From positions 186,001-250,000 of the forward strand of contig CALMJH010000041.1 of NCBI GenBank assembly GCA_937864175.1: DNA of 64,000 nt. Direction: 5' to 3'. Below the pieces are notes generated by a model that saw only the letters and a list, made by a program, of their open reading frames with translations, made no database searches and was not told the DNA's origin. Below, piece by piece: positions 3,001 to 10,700 of this stretch. Each line of letters begins with the position of its first letter. Position 1 is the first letter of the stretch. Source of the stretch: an uncultured Burkholderiales bacterium. Its GTDB lineage: Bacteria > Pseudomonadota > Gammaproteobacteria > Burkholderiales > Burkholderiaceae_A. The translations under genes and the position numbers were made by a program.

Positions 3001-3902
3001 GCCTGGGCCAGCCGACCAAAGAGCGGAAGGATGTCCACCTGTGCAGCGGCCGGCCAGTTTCGCTGTGCCTCGGTCAGGGCCTCTGCCGATGCCCGGATTT
3101 CCCTCTCACCCGGCAAGAAGACCAAGACATCAGCGGGTCCGCCCGCCGGCGGCTTCTCGGCCAGAGCCTCCTGAATGCCCGCCAGCGTCTGTTCAATGAG
3201 ATCGCCTCCTCCAGAGCCCTCTGAGGCCGAATGAGCGGGTGGCCGCCACCGGAGGGCCACAGGATGGAGACGGCCAGAGATCGTCAAGACGGGGGCCGGT
3301 CCCTGGCCAAGGTCGAAGTGTTTCGCGAACTTATCGCTGTCGAGGGTGGCAGAGGTGATCACCAGCCGGAGGTCTGGTCTTCGGCTCAGCAGTCCCCGAA
3401 GGTAACCCAACAGAAAATCGATGTTGAGGCTGCGCTCATGGGCCTCGTCCAGAATGATCGTGTCGTAACGCCGCAAGTCAGGATCGGACTGCGTCTCGGC
3501 CAACAGAACCCCGTCGGTCATGAGCTTGATCTGCATGCCCACGTCGGTTCGATCCTGAAAACGAATCTTGTAGCCCACCCTCGCGCCTGGCTCCGGGGCA
3601 AGCCCCGACCCTAGTTCCTGGGCGATCCGACGCGCCACTGAGGTCGCCGCAAGCCTGCGGGGCTGGGTGTGGCCGATCAGGCGACCTGCCTGGCCGCGTC
3701 CGCAGGCCAGAGCAATCTTGGGCAGCTGCGTGGTCTTGCCCGAGCCAGTCTCTCCGCAGATGACCACAACCGGGTGTTGGGCGATGGTCTGAGCAATTTT
3801 GATCCAGGCCTGCGCAATGGGAAGGTCGGGGTCAAAACGAATCCCCAAAGAGCGTGCCTGATTTTCTAGGTATTCTTGGGTTGGCGGCTCGCTCAGGGTC
3901 AC
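54..3902 (-). CDS. hrpA: ATP-dependent RNA helicase HrpA (DEAH box)
   Basis: DEAH-box RNA helicase of about 1282 residues, close to the usual HrpA length of roughly 1300. HrpA proteins act on RNA and on stalled ribosomes. The Walker A motif GETGSGKT lies at about residues 51-58, DEAH at 153-156, then SATLDSDKF and QRSGRAGRLG (motif VI). The long C-terminal half typical of HrpA is present, so the gene looks intact. Two tandem GTG codons (3905 and 3902) could start it. I prefer 3902 because it sits exactly 6 nt after a minus-strand TATAAT, matching the argA start on the other strand. Divergent from argA. Confidence 0.95.
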   Translation of the reverse strand: MTLSEPPTQEYLENQARSLGIRFDPDLPIAQAWIKIAQTIAQHPVVVICGETGSGKTTQLPKIALACGRGQAGRLIGHTQPRRLAATSVARRIAQELGSGLAPEPGARVGYKIRFQDRTDVGMQIKLMTDGVLLAETQSDPDLRRYDTIILDEAHERSLNIDFLLGYLRGLLSRRPDLRLVITSATLDSDKFAKHFDLGQGPAPVLTISGRLHPVALRWRPPAHSASEGSGGGDLIEQTLAGIQEALAEKPPAGGPADVLVFLPGEREIRASAEALTEAQRNWPAAAQVDILPLFGRLAQADQERLFRSVRRRRVVLATNLAETSLTVPGIGFVVDTGLARVKRYRTKGKVEQLQIEPISQSQAAQRSGRAGRLGPGLCIRLYDEAEFATRPVHADPEIRRSSLASVLLRMKSLGLPDPAAFPFVDPPARRAIADGLALLYELQAVDKAGILTTTGHYLADLPMDPRLARMVVAGHEGGCLGEVLVIVSALSIQDPRDRPLEQQQAADQAHRRLADEQGDFMTWLKVWAFVEQCYEGKQSHRQLDQQLRSAFLSPVRVREWRDLHRQLHDWVLKRDWRLNTTPATAEQVHRALLTGLLSNLGCRIEAAASGGGTGPRTRTGPLWQGTHEVKFSIWPGSVLAKKPPRWVMAAEQVETSRLYARTLAGVDPTWIEQAAGHLLRVSVAEPHWEKKQARVVGTARGVLYGLTVYQQRRVAWASRGEAERREARAIFIREGLVGQAMDCRLPFFEHNQRLLREIERLEHKARRQDLLVDESLLEAFYDSQLPQDVVDLDSLTRWWRKASPTQPRLLFLDRQDLMRHDAAGITTDQFPKTLVQAGLSLALDYKFEPGAVDDGLTVAIPLAVLNQVQAQGLDWLVPGMRKEKVLALLKSLPGRHRRPLVPLEAYAQGFCERWADRAGELGLLVALCDDIASQTGLRLMSDDFKRDQLPAHWSPWIRVLDEHGRQLGQGRDLAVLKQSLGGKASDLVAAATQTDQQPPQTSWTFGALPTQQTLQHAGQTLLTYPALQDHQTGVVVGHFEDPDQARKSHGLGLIRLFSFQVKDQIKTLEKDLAHQPALALAWSASGWSGLASEAVIRLALRRAFLSGDWPRDSESFARVLAQGRSRVLLQAQEVTRWLTELLGLVTTVQKRLGGLRSQRGLVDDVQAQMERLLEKDGFDELPPERQRHLVRYLQAVLMRLDKARLDPARDQQLQAEVASLEQPFWRWARQQTGAWSEATVDFRWQLEELRVALFAQSLRTPGPVSVKRLQKAWQALQSGLR

Positions 3903-3908
3903 CACAAA

Positions 3909-3916
3909 ATTATAAT
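3909..3916. promoter_or_regulatory. Palindromic bidirectional -10 element (hrpA/argA)
   Basis: ATTATAAT is its own reverse complement, so it gives a perfect TATAAT on both strands. On the plus strand TATAAT (3911-3916) is followed by 6 nt and the argA ATG. On the minus strand TATAAT (3914-3909) is followed by 6 nt and a GTG of hrpA. No convincing -35 box is seen on either side. The spacing predicts transcription starting at or next to the start codon in both directions, that is leaderless mRNAs. This is inference. Confidence 0.6.
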
Positions 3917-3922
3917 GAGCCT

Positions 3923-5290
3923 ATGACCCAAGACGCCCTCCCAGCCGCAGCCAGTCCCTCTTCGCCCCCAGGCCAAGGCGTTGGCCATGACTTCGTTCGC
4001 TGGCTTCGAAGTGTTGCTCCCTACATTCACGCCTTTCGAAACAAGACCTTCGTGGTGGCTTTTCCGGGGGAGATGGTGACCGAGGGGCGCCTGGAATCGT
4101 TGGTCCATGATGTTGCTCTCCTGCAGGCCATGGGCATGCGCATTGTCTTGGCCTATGGGTCGCGCCCACAGGTGGAAGAGCAACTTCGACTGCGTCAGAT
4201 TGAGGACCGGTACAGCCATGGCATGCGCATCACCGACCTGGCTGCCCTGGAATGCGCCAAAGAGGCGGCGGGGGAGCTCAGGCTCGATATTGAGGCGGCC
4301 TTCTCGGCCGGCCTGCCCAATACGCCAATGGGCAACTCCCGCATCCGAATCATCAGTGGCAATTTCGTGACGGCCCGGCCCGTCGGCATCGTCGATGGCA
4401 TCGACTTTGAGCACACCGGCCTGGTGAGGAAAATCGAGGTGGACTCCATTGCCCAGGCCCTGTCGGGTGGTTCCATTGTGCTGGTTCCACCGCTGGGGTT
4501 CTCGCCCACTGGAGATGCCTTCAACCTCACCCTCGAAGATGTCGCCGCCTCGCTGGCAGTGGCCCTCGATGCGGACAAGCTCATCTATCTGGTACCCGAG
4601 TCCGGCGTACCTGCCGCCCCCGCCGATGAAGATCCCATCATCGAGATCTCCGAAGACCAGGCTGAGGCACTGCTTGCAAAGCCTGGGCTCTCTGAGGAGG
4701 CGGCCTTCACCCTGTCGCATGCCCTCAGGGCCTGCAAAGGCGGCGTTGAGCGTGCCCATCTTGTGCCTTACACCAAAGACGGGGCCCTGCTCATCGAACT
4801 CTTTACCCACGATGGCGTAGGCGTCATGCTGGTGGAGGAGACTCTGGAGGCCCTTCGGCCGGCCACACCAGACGACGTCGCCGCCATCGTTTCCCTCATT
4901 GAGCCTCTCGAGGCCGACGGCACCCTGGTCCCCAGAGGCCGCAATGCCATTGAGCGAGATATCGACAACTTCACTGTGATCGAACACGATGGAGTGCTCT
5001 TCGGCTGTGCCGCCCTCTACCACTATGCCGACAGCACGCTCGGTGAATTGGCCTGTCTCATGGTGCGGCCTGATACCCAAGAAAAGGGCGACGGCGAACG
5101 GCTTCTGAAGAGAATTGAACACCAGGCTCGGCAGACAGGCCTCAAGGCACTTTTTGTGCTGACCACCCGAACGACCCACTGGTTTCTCAAGCGAGGCTTC
5201 AAGCCTGCGACCGTCGAAGAACTGCCAGAGATTCGCAAAAAAGCCTATAACTGGGACCGTAAATCCCAGGTCTTGATCAAGACCCTCTGA
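3923..5290 (+). CDS. argA: N-acetylglutamate synthase ArgA
   Basis: First committed enzyme of arginine synthesis, making N-acetylglutamate from glutamate and acetyl-CoA. The protein of about 455 residues has an N-terminal amino-acid-kinase-like domain (VVAFPGEMV, AYGSRPQVEEQL) and a C-terminal GNAT domain (ACLMVRPDTQEKGDGERLL, then TTHWFLKRGF), the classic ArgA architecture. The ORF track starts 69 nt upstream inside hrpA sequence. ATG 3923 is chosen because TATAAT lies 6 nt before it and no Shine-Dalgarno is visible. It lies about 33 kb from argD/argF/argG. Its 3' end overlaps the convergent unknown gene by 14 nt. Confidence 0.93.
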   Translation: MTQDALPAAASPSSPPGQGVGHDFVRWLRSVAPYIHAFRNKTFVVAFPGEMVTEGRLESLVHDVALLQAMGMRIVLAYGSRPQVEEQLRLRQIEDRYSHGMRITDLAALECAKEAAGELRLDIEAAFSAGLPNTPMGNSRIRIISGNFVTARPVGIVDGIDFEHTGLVRKIEVDSIAQALSGGSIVLVPPLGFSPTGDAFNLTLEDVAASLAVALDADKLIYLVPESGVPAAPADEDPIIEISEDQAEALLAKPGLSEEAAFTLSHALRACKGGVERAHLVPYTKDGALLIELFTHDGVGVMLVEETLEALRPATPDDVAAIVSLIEPLEADGTLVPRGRNAIERDIDNFTVIEHDGVLFGCAALYHYADSTLGELACLMVRPDTQEKGDGERLLKRIEHQARQTGLKALFVLTTRTTHWFLKRGFKPATVEELPEIRKKAYNWDRKSQVLIKTL

Positions 5291-6029
5291 CCAAAACGCC
5301 GGGCACCGAGTCGGCAGCGATGGGCAGGCCAATTCCGCAGATCTGCGTAGCCTGTGCCATCCACTGGTCCAGCCAGTAGATCAGACAGGGACCCTCGACC
5401 ACCCTCTGGTCCTGCCAGACCAGACCCTTTGGAAGCCCAGCCAGTTCTGGCCAGCGTGGAAGACGCAGTTCGTCCACCAGTCTGATCTCGGGACCCTCGC
5501 CAGGGCCCGCCGGCTCTCTCCAGACCGGCTCGACCAGAAGCGAGAGCGGGCCTATTAGCCTGAGGCTAGAGAGGTCCTCCTCAGAAATGGGCTGATCAAA
5601 TCTGAGTAAGAGGGACCCATCGGCGGCCTCCGACGACAGGCGAAGCAGCCCTGGCTGGGCAAGCCTCTGCAGCCATGCCGTCCAGCGGGGCGACAAGACC
5701 AGAGGATCGGCAAGACGGACTCTGCCCAGTTCAGAACTCACCGGACGTTGCTGCGCCTCTCGCTGGGCCCGCGTCTGTAAAGTGGTTCGCAAGAGGGAGA
5801 GGCTGGTGGCCTGGAAATCCTGGCCCAGAGCGGGGGACCCCGCCACCAGAGCGAGGGCCGTCAGGAGTCGTTGAGCCTGTGCATCAAGACTCTGGGTGCT
5901 GGAGCCTGCGACCTCCGAACGGGGCAGCAGCGCCGTGGGCTGGGTCTCACGATCGGCCAAGAGACTGTCGAGGCCTGCAAGAAGACCATCTAGGGTCTCG
6001 GTCAGGTCTTTGTCGATCTGGACGCTCAC
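5277..6029 (-). CDS. Unknown 250-residue protein, last gene of the rnhA-dnaQ operon
   Basis: I do not recognise a family. The start is GTG, with AAGGG a few bases upstream and the previous gene ending 10 nt earlier. The N-terminus (MSVQIDKDLTETLDGLLAG) is acidic and helical, followed by an Ala/Leu-rich helical stretch. The second half is Trp/Pro-rich and probably globular (LSPRWTAWLQRLAQPGLLRL, YWLDQWMAQATQICGIGLP). There is no signal peptide or membrane segment, so it is probably cytoplasmic. It follows a two-TM protein and a CheW-like protein in one operon. The 3' end overlaps argA by 14 nt. Confidence 0.6.
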   Translation of the reverse strand: MSVQIDKDLTETLDGLLAGLDSLLADRETQPTALLPRSEVAGSSTQSLDAQAQRLLTALALVAGSPALGQDFQATSLSLLRTTLQTRAQREAQQRPVSSELGRVRLADPLVLSPRWTAWLQRLAQPGLLRLSSEAADGSLLLRFDQPISEEDLSSLRLIGPLSLLVEPVWREPAGPGEGPEIRLVDELRLPRWPELAGLPKGLVWQDQRVVEGPCLIYWLDQWMAQATQICGIGLPIAADSVPGVLVRGS

Positions 6030-6039
6030 AATCTAGCCC

Positions 6040-6726
6040 TTAGAGTTTTGCGAGGTTGGCCATCATGGCATGCTGGGGACCCCGCTGACGCTCGAGTGCC
6101 GCCAGGGACTCGTCCAGGGCGTCTCGCAGGGCCTGAAGGTCGTCAGCTGTCCGTGGACCAGAGGGGTCGAGGCTGAGGTTGAGGGCCGACTGACGCGCTG
6201 CATCCAGGCTTGTCCGCGCCTGGTTCCAGCCCTCTTCGCTGGCCATGAGGTTGCTCTCGATCGATTCAATAATCGCTCGAGTAATGGGTGTGAAGACAGG
6301 CTGGCTCTGGCGGGGTGCCGACCGCTCTGGTGGACTCGCTGGCTCGTGGGCGTCGTACCCCTGAAGCTGCTTTGGGAGATGGACAGCCAGAGAGATCAGC
6401 ACGAGGGCGGCGAGCGTGAGTGAGAGTGCCCCCAGAAGCAGAAAAAGCAAGGCCAGCGGAACGCCTTGGTCGGACCAGTCTGCTGGGTCGTCCACGAAGG
6501 GCAGGTGAAACAGAGCGTGCGAGTCATGGTGGCTAGCCAGATCGAGCACTGTGGCCCAGGTCCACTCATAGACTTCTTGAATGGGAGAAGCAAAGACCCA
6601 TGCAGACCACTCTGGGGAGAGCCAGACCCAACCCTGCTGATGCGCCAACAGCGCCGTAAGGAGAAGGGCCAACCCCAACCAGACCAGCCTAGATCCTCCT
6701 CGCGCCATACGGTATGACCACTTCAT
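6040..6726 (-). CDS. Unknown membrane protein with two TM segments and a cytoplasmic helical tail
   Basis: A 228-residue protein of no family I recognise. A first TM helix lies at about residues 14-30 (LVWLGLALLLTALLAHQ). A loop of about 60 residues rich in Trp, His and Asp follows, probably periplasmic (SPEWSAWVF, LASHHDSHALFHLPF). The second TM is at about 90-115 (LALLFLLLGALSLTLAAL). A soluble tail of about 110 residues then has helices such as ITRAIIESIESNLMASEEGW and LQALRDALDESLAALERQR. The layout recalls a short sensory transducer, but no HAMP or MCP hairpin is seen. It lies 3 nt after the CheW-like gene, with GGAG upstream. Confidence 0.6.
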   Translation of the reverse strand: MKWSYRMARGGSRLVWLGLALLLTALLAHQQGWVWLSPEWSAWVFASPIQEVYEWTWATVLDLASHHDSHALFHLPFVDDPADWSDQGVPLALLFLLLGALSLTLAALVLISLAVHLPKQLQGYDAHEPASPPERSAPRQSQPVFTPITRAIIESIESNLMASEEGWNQARTSLDAARQSALNLSLDPSGPRTADDLQALRDALDESLAALERQRGPQHAMMANLAKL

Positions 6727-6729
6727 TCC

Positions 6730-7008
6730 TTATTCCTCCCTCATCCAACTCACCTCGTCTGCAAGGACGCCCACGCCACAGTCGCCATTGTCACGCAAGA
6801 TGACCACAAGAGCTGCTAGGCCATGGACCTCCGGCTCGAACCCAACCTCCGAGGGCTCACGAACAAAAATTGGTTTGCCCGACACAAACCCAAAGCCTGT
6901 GCCACCCACCGACCACCGCATGCCCATCTGGGAGAGCGGGACGACCCGACTCACCTCCTGGGCCTGATAGGTGGTGATCTGGCCAAGGCGCATGATCTTG
7001 ATCTTCAT
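6730..7008 (-). CDS. Small CheW-like protein (possible adaptor)
   Basis: A 92-residue protein whose pattern resembles a shortened CheW fold: AQEVSRVVPLSQMG near the N-terminus, FVSGKPIFV in the middle and LVVILRDNGDCGVGVLADEV at the end, comparable to the closing beta strands of CheW (hydrophobic strand, polar turn, GVGVLADEV). CheW proteins couple receptors to the CheA kinase. At 92 residues it is well below the usual 140-170, so it may be reduced or only convergent. Its ATG overlaps the dnaQ stop (ATGA), implying translational coupling. The next gene encodes a two-TM protein. The family call is inference. Confidence 0.5.
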   Translation of the reverse strand: MKIKIMRLGQITTYQAQEVSRVVPLSQMGMRWSVGGTGFGFVSGKPIFVREPSEVGFEPEVHGLAALVVILRDNGDCGVGVLADEVSWMREE

Positions 7009-7718
7009 GAATTCACCTGCTGAGAAAGGCGTCGCCAGACCGCGCCCTCTGGGCAGACCCGGTCGATCTCATCGAGGATTCGCTCATGGGCAGCCCACTC
7101 CTCTGGCGTCGGTTGAACCACCAGAAGGCTCGAGAGGTCCATTGCCGCCAAGGCAGCCTGGGAAGCCGCCCGATCCTCCGTGGGCATCATATCGAGGGTC
7201 TCCTGTCCCCGTGTCATGGCCAGGTAGACCTCCGAGAGCAACTCGGCATCCAGCAGGGCCCCGTGCAAGACCCGGTGGTCGTTGGCCACGCCATAGCGGC
7301 CACAGAGGGCATCGAGCGAATTTCGCTGGCCAGGATGAAGCTCGCGAGCCATCTTGAGGCTGTCCGTGACTTGAGCAGCCACCGACTCCACCGGCGGCAG
7401 CCCCAGCCGGTCCAGCTCAGCATTGAGAAAGCCGAGGTCAAAAGGCGCGTTGTGGATGATGAGGTGGGCTCCATCAATAAAGGCGGTGAAGTCTCTGGCC
7501 ACCTGAGCAAAGACTGGCTTGTCCTGCAGCATCTCCCAGGTAAACCCATGGACCTGGGCGGCCCCCTCGTCGACCTCCCGCTCCGGGTTGATGTAGAGGT
7601 GCAGACGTTTGCCGCTGGCACGACGGTCGATGAGCTCGACGCAGCCGATCTCGATGATGCGGTGACCTTCGTCGACCCTTAGGCCGGTTGTTTCGGTGTC
7701 GAGGACGACGAGACGCAT
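7005..7718 (-). CDS. dnaQ: DNA polymerase III epsilon subunit (3'-5' proofreading exonuclease)
   Basis: Proofreading exonuclease of the replicative polymerase, about 237 residues. Exo I is LDTETTG directly after the start, exo II is HNAPFDLGFLNAEL, and exo III is HGALLDAELLSEVYL. The C-terminal segment, which tethers epsilon to the polymerase, ends in PEGAVWRRLSQQ. The start MRLVVLDTETTGL (ATG 7718) fits the family; the track's ATG 7730 adds four residues. The gene begins 40 nt inside the end of the upstream RND pump gene, in another frame, so its exo I motif is encoded by the overlap. Confidence 0.95.
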   Translation of the reverse strand: MRLVVLDTETTGLRVDEGHRIIEIGCVELIDRRASGKRLHLYINPEREVDEGAAQVHGFTWEMLQDKPVFAQVARDFTAFIDGAHLIIHNAPFDLGFLNAELDRLGLPPVESVAAQVTDSLKMARELHPGQRNSLDALCGRYGVANDHRVLHGALLDAELLSEVYLAMTRGQETLDMMPTEDRAASQAALAAMDLSSLLVVQPTPEEWAAHERILDEIDRVCPEGAVWRRLSQQVNS

Positions 7719-10700
7719 GAGGCTACCCATACAAAAATGGTTGGCAAAACAAAGAGAGTGAGCAGGGTTCCAAGGCTCATTCCACCAACAATGACCCAGC
7801 CAATCTCACGACGGCTTTCTGCGCCTGGGCCTGTCGCCAGCGCCAGCGGAATAGCCCCAAAAACCGTTGAAATCGCTGTCATCAGAATGGGCCGAAAACG
7901 AAGTTCAGTGGCCCGAAGCGTCGACTCCACGACCGAGAGACCCTGCTCGCGAAGCTGGTTAGCAAATTCAACAATCAAAATGCCGTTCTTGGTCACCAGG
8001 CCAATCAGGGCGATAAGGCCTATCTGTGAGTAGACATTGATGGTTCCGCCGGTCAGCCACATCGTTAGCAGGGCCCCCGCAAACGACAAGGGCACGGTCA
8101 GCATGATGACCATGGGATAGACAAAACTCTCAAACTGGGCTGACAAGACCAGGTAGATGAAGACAAGGGCCAGGGCAAAGACAAACAAAATCGTGTTTTG
8201 AGAATCCCGGTATTCCCGAGACTGTCCATCATAGTCCAGCTGATAGTCCGGTGGCAGGACCTCCCGGGCTGTCCGCTCGACAGCGGTCAGGGCCTCGCCC
8301 AGGGCAACGCCCGGGGCCAAATTGGCTGTCACGGTCACCGCCCTCTGCTGAAGAAAGTGGTTGAGTTCGCGGGGTGCCACGGTCTCCCGAATTTTGATCA
8401 GGCTGGCCAGCGGAACCAGCTGGCCATCCCGTCCTCTGACCGAGACCCCACGAATGTCCTCGGGCGTGTTCCGCCGGTCGGCCTCAAGCTGCACGATGAC
8501 ATCAAACTGCTCATTGCCCCGCTTAAAGCGCGTCACCTGTCGGCCACCAAGCAGAGTCTCCAGGGTGCGGCCAATCAATTCCACAGGCACCCCTAAGTCG
8601 GCCGCACGTTCACGATCAATGTCAAGGCGCATCTCGGGCTTGGTAATCTGGAGGTCCGTCTCCACCCCCTGCAGCATGGGGTTCTGTAAGAGCCGCAGGC
8701 GAAGAGCCTCCGTGGCCGCCGACATTTCCTGGATGCTCGCCGAAGACAAGACCACCACCTGAATAGGACGGGCCCGCACGTTCTGGCCTAGTGAGGGCGG
8801 GGTAACCACAAAGGCGTTTATTCCGGGAATACCCAAGACCTTGGGCTGGATCTGTTTGGCGATTTCTTGGGTGCTGCGATCCCGGTCCTCCCAGGGCACG
8901 GGACGCAAGAAGGCAATGCCCTTGTCAACGGCAGGCGAGCCGGCGATGACCAGATACTTCTCTACCTCGGGTACCGACGCAAAGATGTCCTCAAGCCGCA
9001 GGGCGTAACGAGCCGTGTACTGAATGGAGCTGCCCTGCGGGGCCGTGAGGATGGAGACCAGAAAGCCCCGATCCTCGACCGGCGTGAGCTCTTTCTTCAA
9101 GATGTTGAAAAAACCGCCAGTCACCACCAAGACAGCCACGGCCGCGAGGGCGATGGTCCTGCGCCGGTCCAAGATGACCCCCAGGACCTGGGCATAGCGG
9201 GCTGCGACTCGATCAAAACTCCGATCAAACCACTCCCCAAGCCCACGGGCCCACAGTCGCCATTTGGCTGGTGGACGCTGGCTGGCCAACTCTTCGGCCT
9301 CTTTGGCGTGAGGCCGCAGCAGCCTTGAGCACATCATCGGAGAGAGGGTCAGGGCCACAAAGCCAGAGACCAGCACCGCGCCAGCCAGCGTTAGGGCGAA
9401 CTCAATAAAAAGTCGCCCGGTCCGGCCGCTAGAGAAGGCCATCGGTGCGAAGACCGACGCCAGTGTGAGGGTCATGGCCACCACCGCAAAGCTAATCTCC
9501 CGCATGCCTTGGAAGGCAGCGGCCATGGGCCGCATCCCCTCCTCAATGTGTCGGGCAATGTTCTCCAGCACAACAATGGCATCGTCGACCACCACCCCAA
9601 TCGAGAGCACCATGGCCAACAGCGTCAGGGTGTTGATGGAAAAGCCCAGCATGAGCAACAGGGCAAAGGTCGTCACCAGGGAGACGGGAATGGTGACGAT
9701 GGGAATGATGGCGGCGCGCCAGCTTTTGAGAAAGACGAAGACCACCAGGCCCACCAAGACCACGGCCTCGAGGATGGAGGAGGTCACCGCCTTGATGGAA
9801 CGGTCAATGAAGACCGAGTAGTCGTTGGCTACCTCGAATCCGACGCTCGGGGGCAGGTCGCGAAGAATCTTGGGGATCTCGGCCTGGACCGCATCCGACA
9901 GGGTCAGTGGATTGGCTGTGGCCTGCTTAATAACCCCCATTGCGACGGTGTTGCGTCCCTTGTAGCGGGCGACACGACGCTCGTTCTCTGGGGCAATCTC
10001 GACGCGGGCGACATCCTTTAACCTCACCAGAGAGGCCTGTCGCCGAGGCGCCTTCAGGATAATGCCCTCGAACTCCTGAGGAGTCTGTAGGTCGGTGGGC
10101 GCCATCACCGAGAACTCTCGGCCTGGTGTCTCAATGAGTCCCGCCGGAATCTCGACATTCTGACGGCGCAAGGCATCCTCCACGTCCTGAATCGAGAGTC
10201 CCCTGGCGGTCAGGGCCTGGCTGTCGACCCAGATGCGCATCGCAAATCGACGGTCACCAAAGATACGGACATCGGCCGCACCAGGTAGCGTCTGGAGCCT
10301 TGGCTTTACCACTCGGTTGGCCAGGTCACTCAACTCCATCAGGTTCAGGCTATCGCTGTTCAGAGTCAGCCAGATGATTGGAGAGGCGTCGGCCTCCACT
10401 TTCGAAACCTGAGAATCGCCCACGCTATCCGGCAGACGACTGCGGACGCGGGAGACCCGGTCCCGCACGTCTGAGGCCGCATCGTCCGGATTGCGATCGA
10501 GCTTGAAACGCACGCTGATCTGAGAATTCTCGGCCCGAGAGATCGAGGTCAGGACCTCGATGCCCTCAATACCCGCAATGGAGTCTTCCAGGGGTTTGGT
10601 AATTTGCGATTCGATGATTTCCGGTGAGGCGCCACGGTAGTCCGTGCTCACGGTCACGACCGGCTCGTCAATCTTTGGATACTCGCGAATCGAGAGCTTG

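Follow-up and report, generated by a model that had tools for sequence, protein, structure and literature searches.

To our knowledge, CheW folds are known only as adaptors that work with CheA and receptors. The described systems closest to the locus analyzed here are CheW (PF01584; PDB 2ch4, 1k0s, and 2ho9) and the P5 domain of CheA, the methyl-accepting chemotaxis receptors (MCPs; PF00015), the DHp-CA core of histidine kinases, especially degenerate forms such as ChpT, and the sensor/regulator modules found beside secretion clusters. CheW folds themselves are thus not new; what is unusual here is a stable, clade-wide trio of genes built around a compact CheW fold in the absence of CheA or receptors. 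We know of no described type VI secretion system (T6SS) regulator that contains such a trio, and a literature search on orphan or minimal CheW-like proteins and on BLUF, with most subscription papers outside its scope, returned nothing matching it. The trio, termed cw92, tm228, and u250, may be an undescribed, stripped-down signaling unit.

Gene organization and conservation

The three genes form an operon at positions 5277 to 7008 (minus strand) of the window, i.e., the whole 64,000-nucleotide stretch of DNA that was analyzed. Their order is dnaQ-cw92-tm228-u250, convergent with argA. The conserved upstream neighbor, dnaQ (7005 to 7730, minus strand), encodes a DNA polymerase III epsilon-like exonuclease, and its stop codon overlaps the start of cw92 (6730 to 7008, minus strand; 92 amino acids) in an ATGA at 7005 to 7008. 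The tm228 gene (6040 to 6726, minus strand; 228 amino acids) starts 3 nt past cw92, and u250 (5277 to 6029, minus strand; 250 amino acids) starts 10 nt past tm228, with a GTG codon that agrees with the starts in relatives. The conserved neighbor on the far side is a convergent argA-type N-acetylglutamate synthase gene (3854 to 5290, plus strand; conserved part from ~3923), whose 3' end overlaps that of u250 by 14 nt. The tight spacing after dnaQ described in the initial annotation (ATGA, 3-nt, and 10-nt junctions) is therefore confirmed. No promoter-like site was seen in the trio stretch, and terminator-like sites there did not exceed the count in shuffled sequence. Scans of the trio with Pfam, NCBIfam, PHROGs, and PADLOC matched no family, a sequence-profile search of the PDB gave only chance-level matches, e.g., to interleukin-6 and cadherins, no trio protein showed a sequence-level match to CheW, MCP, or kinase families, and no clear matches of all three to one known family set were found.

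The window genome (G000; completeness, 93.6%) belongs to the MWH-UniPo clade of the Burkholderiales, a family represented by 26 genomes in three genera (g1, g2, and g3). The clade consists of small aquatic bacteria, mostly without a chemotaxis system, and includes the isolate LSUCC0115, which is in culture, carries the trio, and has been reported to possess phototrophy genes as well as flagellar assembly genes (PMC6952679). Profile searches placed trio genes in nearly all 26 genomes, mostly between dnaQ and argA. The u250 profile matched 21 of the 26 (9 of 10 among the better assemblies), and a refined profile matched G015 as well. The order dnaQ-cw-tm-u250-argA was seen in each of the three genera, between which protein identities fall as low as ~16 to 20%, so that the trio is not the property of a single strain, an outcome that the initial annotation had left to a search for conserved co-occurrence.

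Confident matches were confined to the family, both for u250 among 300 genomes and for cw among 399 genomes of the order Burkholderiales, in a search whose fast first pass may let very distant relatives escape. Matches of u250 outside the family at the order level (E values of 0.0016 to 0.007) were weak and looked like chance matches, and no relatives of the trio were found on plasmids. Among close relatives, dN/dS was ~0.04 to 0.26 for all three genes, which are therefore real and constrained. Together with the same-order orthologues across the family, these ratios identify the trio as genes under purifying selection rather than chance open reading frames.

The three genes are not strictly obligate neighbors. 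The G007 locus is dnaQ-tm-argA without cw or u250, neither of whose profiles matched elsewhere in that genome, and in G001 the dnaQ locus contains cw and tm, with the sole u250 of that genome at another locus. Of the three genes, tm is thus the one most consistently retained. The solitary tm gene of G007 lies at L167:8263-8949 (minus strand), in one of the two family genomes with a canonical CheW.

A predicted compact CheW fold in cw92

The AlphaFold2 model of cw92, built from 21 family sequences, has a pLDDT of 88.3 and a pTM of 0.81. In a Foldseek search of the PDB, the best 13 matches were all CheW, CheA, or chemotaxis core signaling units, with probabilities of 0.98 to 1.00, TMq values of 0.59 to 0.68, and modest E values from 6e-3. 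Aligned by hhalign with a profile of CheW domains from other Burkholderiales, cw92 matched end to end over 99 columns. Of 10 templates, CheW gave the lowest E value, 0.066 when counted as one comparison (reversed CheW, 0.44). The raw score, 15.5, was no better than that of the best decoy (15.7, over 13 columns). The profile alignment is weak on its own, but it agrees with the fold, and the assignment of a CheW fold to cw92 is well supported by prediction.

The small CheW-like protein of the initial annotation thus stands as a predicted fold with a weak co-linear alignment, although Pfam's CheW model is blind to it: PF01584 had no match at an E value of ≤1 in any of the 21 cw members. In addition, cw92 differs from CheW in length (92 amino acids against about 140 to 150), in being found in genomes that lack CheA and MCP domains, and in having tm228 and u250 as fixed partners. 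The PF01584 profile, which recognizes the P5 domain of CheA as well, had no match in 24 of the 26 family genomes, including that of the window, where PF00015 (MCPsignal) had no match either. A protein in such a genome does not couple chemoreceptors to a CheA of the same genome, and cw92 is therefore CheW-like in fold but not a CheW that works with CheA.

A two-helix membrane protein with a hairpin-like tail

Hydropathy indicates two transmembrane segments in tm228, at residues ~10 to 28 and ~87 to 119 (the latter region at 6370 to 6468, minus strand). The 58-residue loop between them contains seven Trp, five His, and no Lys or Arg in the window protein, which is consistent with a loop outside and a tail inside. 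The Trp/His richness pointed out previously holds for the window protein but is not a family trait, as the same region has two to three Trp and one to two His in most measured relatives and five Trp and one His in one g2 protein. In the tail, two helix-compatible arms flank a conserved tip, R-x4-N-L-x-L-D-P-x-G in many aligned members. The best-conserved part (residues 178 to 211; 6094 to 6195, minus strand) comprises this tip, with a further P, and the start of the second arm. Helix-compatible arms on either side of a conserved turn make the tail look like a cytoplasmic helical hairpin.

The outline of tm228 resembles that of an MCP, with two transmembrane helices, a loop on the extracytoplasmic side, and a tail in the cytoplasm that looks like two antiparallel helices joined by a conserved tip. 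However, no MCPsignal domain (PF00015) was detectable in tm228, the alignment of its tail with MCP hairpins by hhalign was not significant and no better than decoys, the putative arms span only ~20 to 45 residues, and the tip motif N-L-x-L-D-P-x-G differs. The earlier description of a two-helix protein with a helical tail and the outline of a minimal receptor holds as an outline only, and “minimal receptor” is used here by analogy.

A kinase-like fold lead for u250

The third protein, initially annotated as soluble and unknown, still matches no family, but its model gives a weak lead toward the DHp-CA core of histidine kinases without catalytic residues. The AlphaFold2 model (pLDDT, 83.6; pTM, 0.72) shows an alpha/beta domain together with a helical hairpin, and has C-terminal strands in addition to those of a CA domain. 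In the Foldseek search of the PDB, ranks 1 to 28 all went to histidine kinases and their relatives, among them DesK, ZraS, KinB, RetS, ChpT, and a CheA-containing core unit, with probabilities up to 0.69 and a modest E value of 1.3e-2. After the hairpin, the elements run strand-helix-strand-strand-helix-helix-strand-strand, which is the order seen in a CA domain.

Other features speak against a DHp-CA core. In an alignment of 23 u250 sequences, no invariant or nearly invariant column corresponded to a phospho-accepting His, N box, G1 box (D-x-G-x-G), or G2 box. The residues conserved in the alignments (S-P-R, P-x-x-P-E, and W-x-D) are not kinase motifs, hhalign comparisons with kinases were no better than decoys, and TM-scores were low (0.2, and ~0.32 against an isolated CA domain at rank 28). 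The description of u250 as a “dead kinase-like protein” is thus a weakly supported lead only.

A duplicated copy beside T6SS genes

A second locus with all three trio genes is present in G010, G004, and G006. The same locus is cut by contig ends after tm or u250 in G008 and G005, and G001 has u250 alone at such a locus. At these loci, the gene after u250 encodes a sensor-like membrane protein, which has no Pfam match and, by our own reading, appears to carry PAS-like sequence. Farther on, where the contigs could be read far enough (L058, L117, and L118), are a REC-GerE response regulator gene and a convergent HisKA/HATPase_c kinase gene. T6SS genes share a contig with this sensor-regulator-kinase module in G001, G003, G004, G005, and G006, and those of G004 were confirmed as encoding VipA, VipB, Hcp, and a gp25-like protein. 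In the u250 tree, copies from second loci group together (support, 96/90), which indicates one duplication within the genus.

With its sensor-like, LuxR-type regulator, and kinase genes next to those for VipA, VipB, and Hcp, the setting of the duplicated trio resembles the regulatory modules found beside secretion clusters. The trio does not occur only alongside T6SS genes. G000, G002, G009, and genomes of g2, the complete G011 among them, have the trio but no VipA, and T6SS is therefore not the general role of the dnaQ-locus trio. For the window copy this role is ruled out, since its genome lacks a T6SS; the sensor-like protein that accompanies the duplicate is absent from it as well. A related sensor-regulator-kinase module lies beside T6SS genes in g3 and G003 without the trio.

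Proposed function and alternatives

The interpretation that we favor, tentatively and at somewhat less than even confidence, is that this clade-specific operon encodes a signaling scaffold that is tethered to the membrane and operates without CheA. The two helices of tm228 would anchor it in the inner membrane and hold its hairpin in the cytoplasm, like a chemoreceptor on a smaller scale. The most likely role of cw92 would be that of an adaptor docking on this hairpin, and u250, probably a catalytically dead kinase-like partner with a helical hairpin and a CA-like domain, would join the complex. Recognizable catalytic residues are missing from all three, and the complex would therefore act through its conformation and by recruiting other proteins, sensing or positioning something at the membrane and modulating separate sensors, kinases, and regulators. 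Candidate targets of the duplicated copy are the sensor-like protein, the LuxR-type response regulator, and the histidine kinase beside the T6SS genes. For many copies at the dnaQ locus the target may be a BLUF photoreceptor. In g2 and part of g1, a gene for this blue-light sensor separates the trio from argA and is encoded on the same strand as the trio; neither the window genome nor g3 has one. Points against the scaffold interpretation are the lack of sequence-level matches, the modest fold scores, the absence from the window genome of T6SS, BLUF, and sensor-like partner genes alike, and the departures from the full trio at dnaQ in G007 and G001.

The main rival is an envelope or machine assembly scaffold, in which the trio would position or assemble a membrane structure (for cell wall synthesis or the T6SS) and the CheW-like domain would be a mere protein-protein adaptor without signal transduction. 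A trio without catalytic residues would suit such a role, as would the proximity of the duplicate to T6SS structural genes and the presence in several g2 genomes (L053, L054, L055, and L168) of genes for an HTH_25 protein, a TPR protein with a Cds6_C domain, and a YkuD L,D-transpeptidase between dnaQ and cw. Nevertheless, the genes right next to the duplicate encode a response regulator, a kinase, and a membrane protein resembling a sensor, not structural components, the BLUF sensor adjoins many copies, and YkuD genes do not adjoin the trio at the dnaQ locus in g1 or g3. An envelope scaffold is accordingly considered rather unlikely. The initial annotation had offered a reduced signaling or envelope module, and gene context favors the former, because the duplicate lies in a sensor/LuxR-type regulator module by the T6SS and BLUF genes adjoin many copies.

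A second alternative concerns u250, which could be an unrelated soluble protein with a new fold, leaving recognizable ancestry only in cw92 and making the trio a family-specific complex of unassigned activity. The low TM-scores, the lack of a profile match to kinases, the additional C-terminal strands, and the nonkinase character of the best-conserved residues all fit a new fold, but the best 28 fold matches are all histidine kinases or their relatives and the order of secondary structure elements agrees with them, and we regard this alternative as unlikely. Descent of every piece directly from chemosensory proteins, as the relic of a lost array of receptor, CheW, and CheA that retains a residual task, is more doubtful still. 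The three parts do parallel receptor, adaptor, and kinase, and CheW/CheA-P5 is missing from all but two of the family genomes even though flagellar assembly genes were reported for LSUCC0115 (PMC6952679). Against this, no residual sequence similarity to MCPs or kinases is seen, and G003 holds a canonical CheW together with the whole trio, which is thus not simply a remainder after loss. A function tied to dnaQ in proofreading or replication, as translational coupling through the ATGA overlap in the window and the retention of the dnaQ neighborhood in all three genera might suggest, is highly improbable, as three genes intervene in several g2 genomes, the duplicate is far from dnaQ, and tm228 is a membrane protein.

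A bolder form of the signaling scaffold interpretation would make the trio a reduced chemosensory-type core complex, composed of a hairpin membrane protein, a 92-residue CheW, and a dead kinase-like partner, that signals without CheA or phosphorylation of its own in one aquatic Burkholderiales clade, was duplicated once for T6SS regulation, and has a blue-light sensor as another partner. This composite is unlikely to hold in full. More generally, the conservation of a compact CheW fold in bacteria that lack CheA and MCP domains, in association with a small receptor-like protein and a noncatalytic kinase-like protein, would mean that the adaptor architecture can work on its own, and the trio offers a small system for testing receptor-adaptor coupling without a kinase.

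Additional observations on neighboring genes

The BLUF gene at the dnaQ locus is located, e.g., at L052:8052-8510 (plus strand) and is also found in L017, L019 to L022, L053 to L056, and L168. A cw/u250 pair without tm is present in L064 (G008:C15), near TPR and YkuD-like genes similar to those of g2. The borders of T6SS clusters (L113, L114, L115, L116, L117, and L118) carry genes for the membrane sensor-like protein, the LuxR-type response regulator, and the kinase. In g3, this module is preceded by genes for a ParA-like ATPase and an unknown protein, and neither the latter nor the sensor-like protein has a Pfam match. In G004, a PIN-like and AbrB-like pair at L117:3897-4546 (minus strand), of toxin-antitoxin type as judged by eye, directly precedes the duplicated trio.
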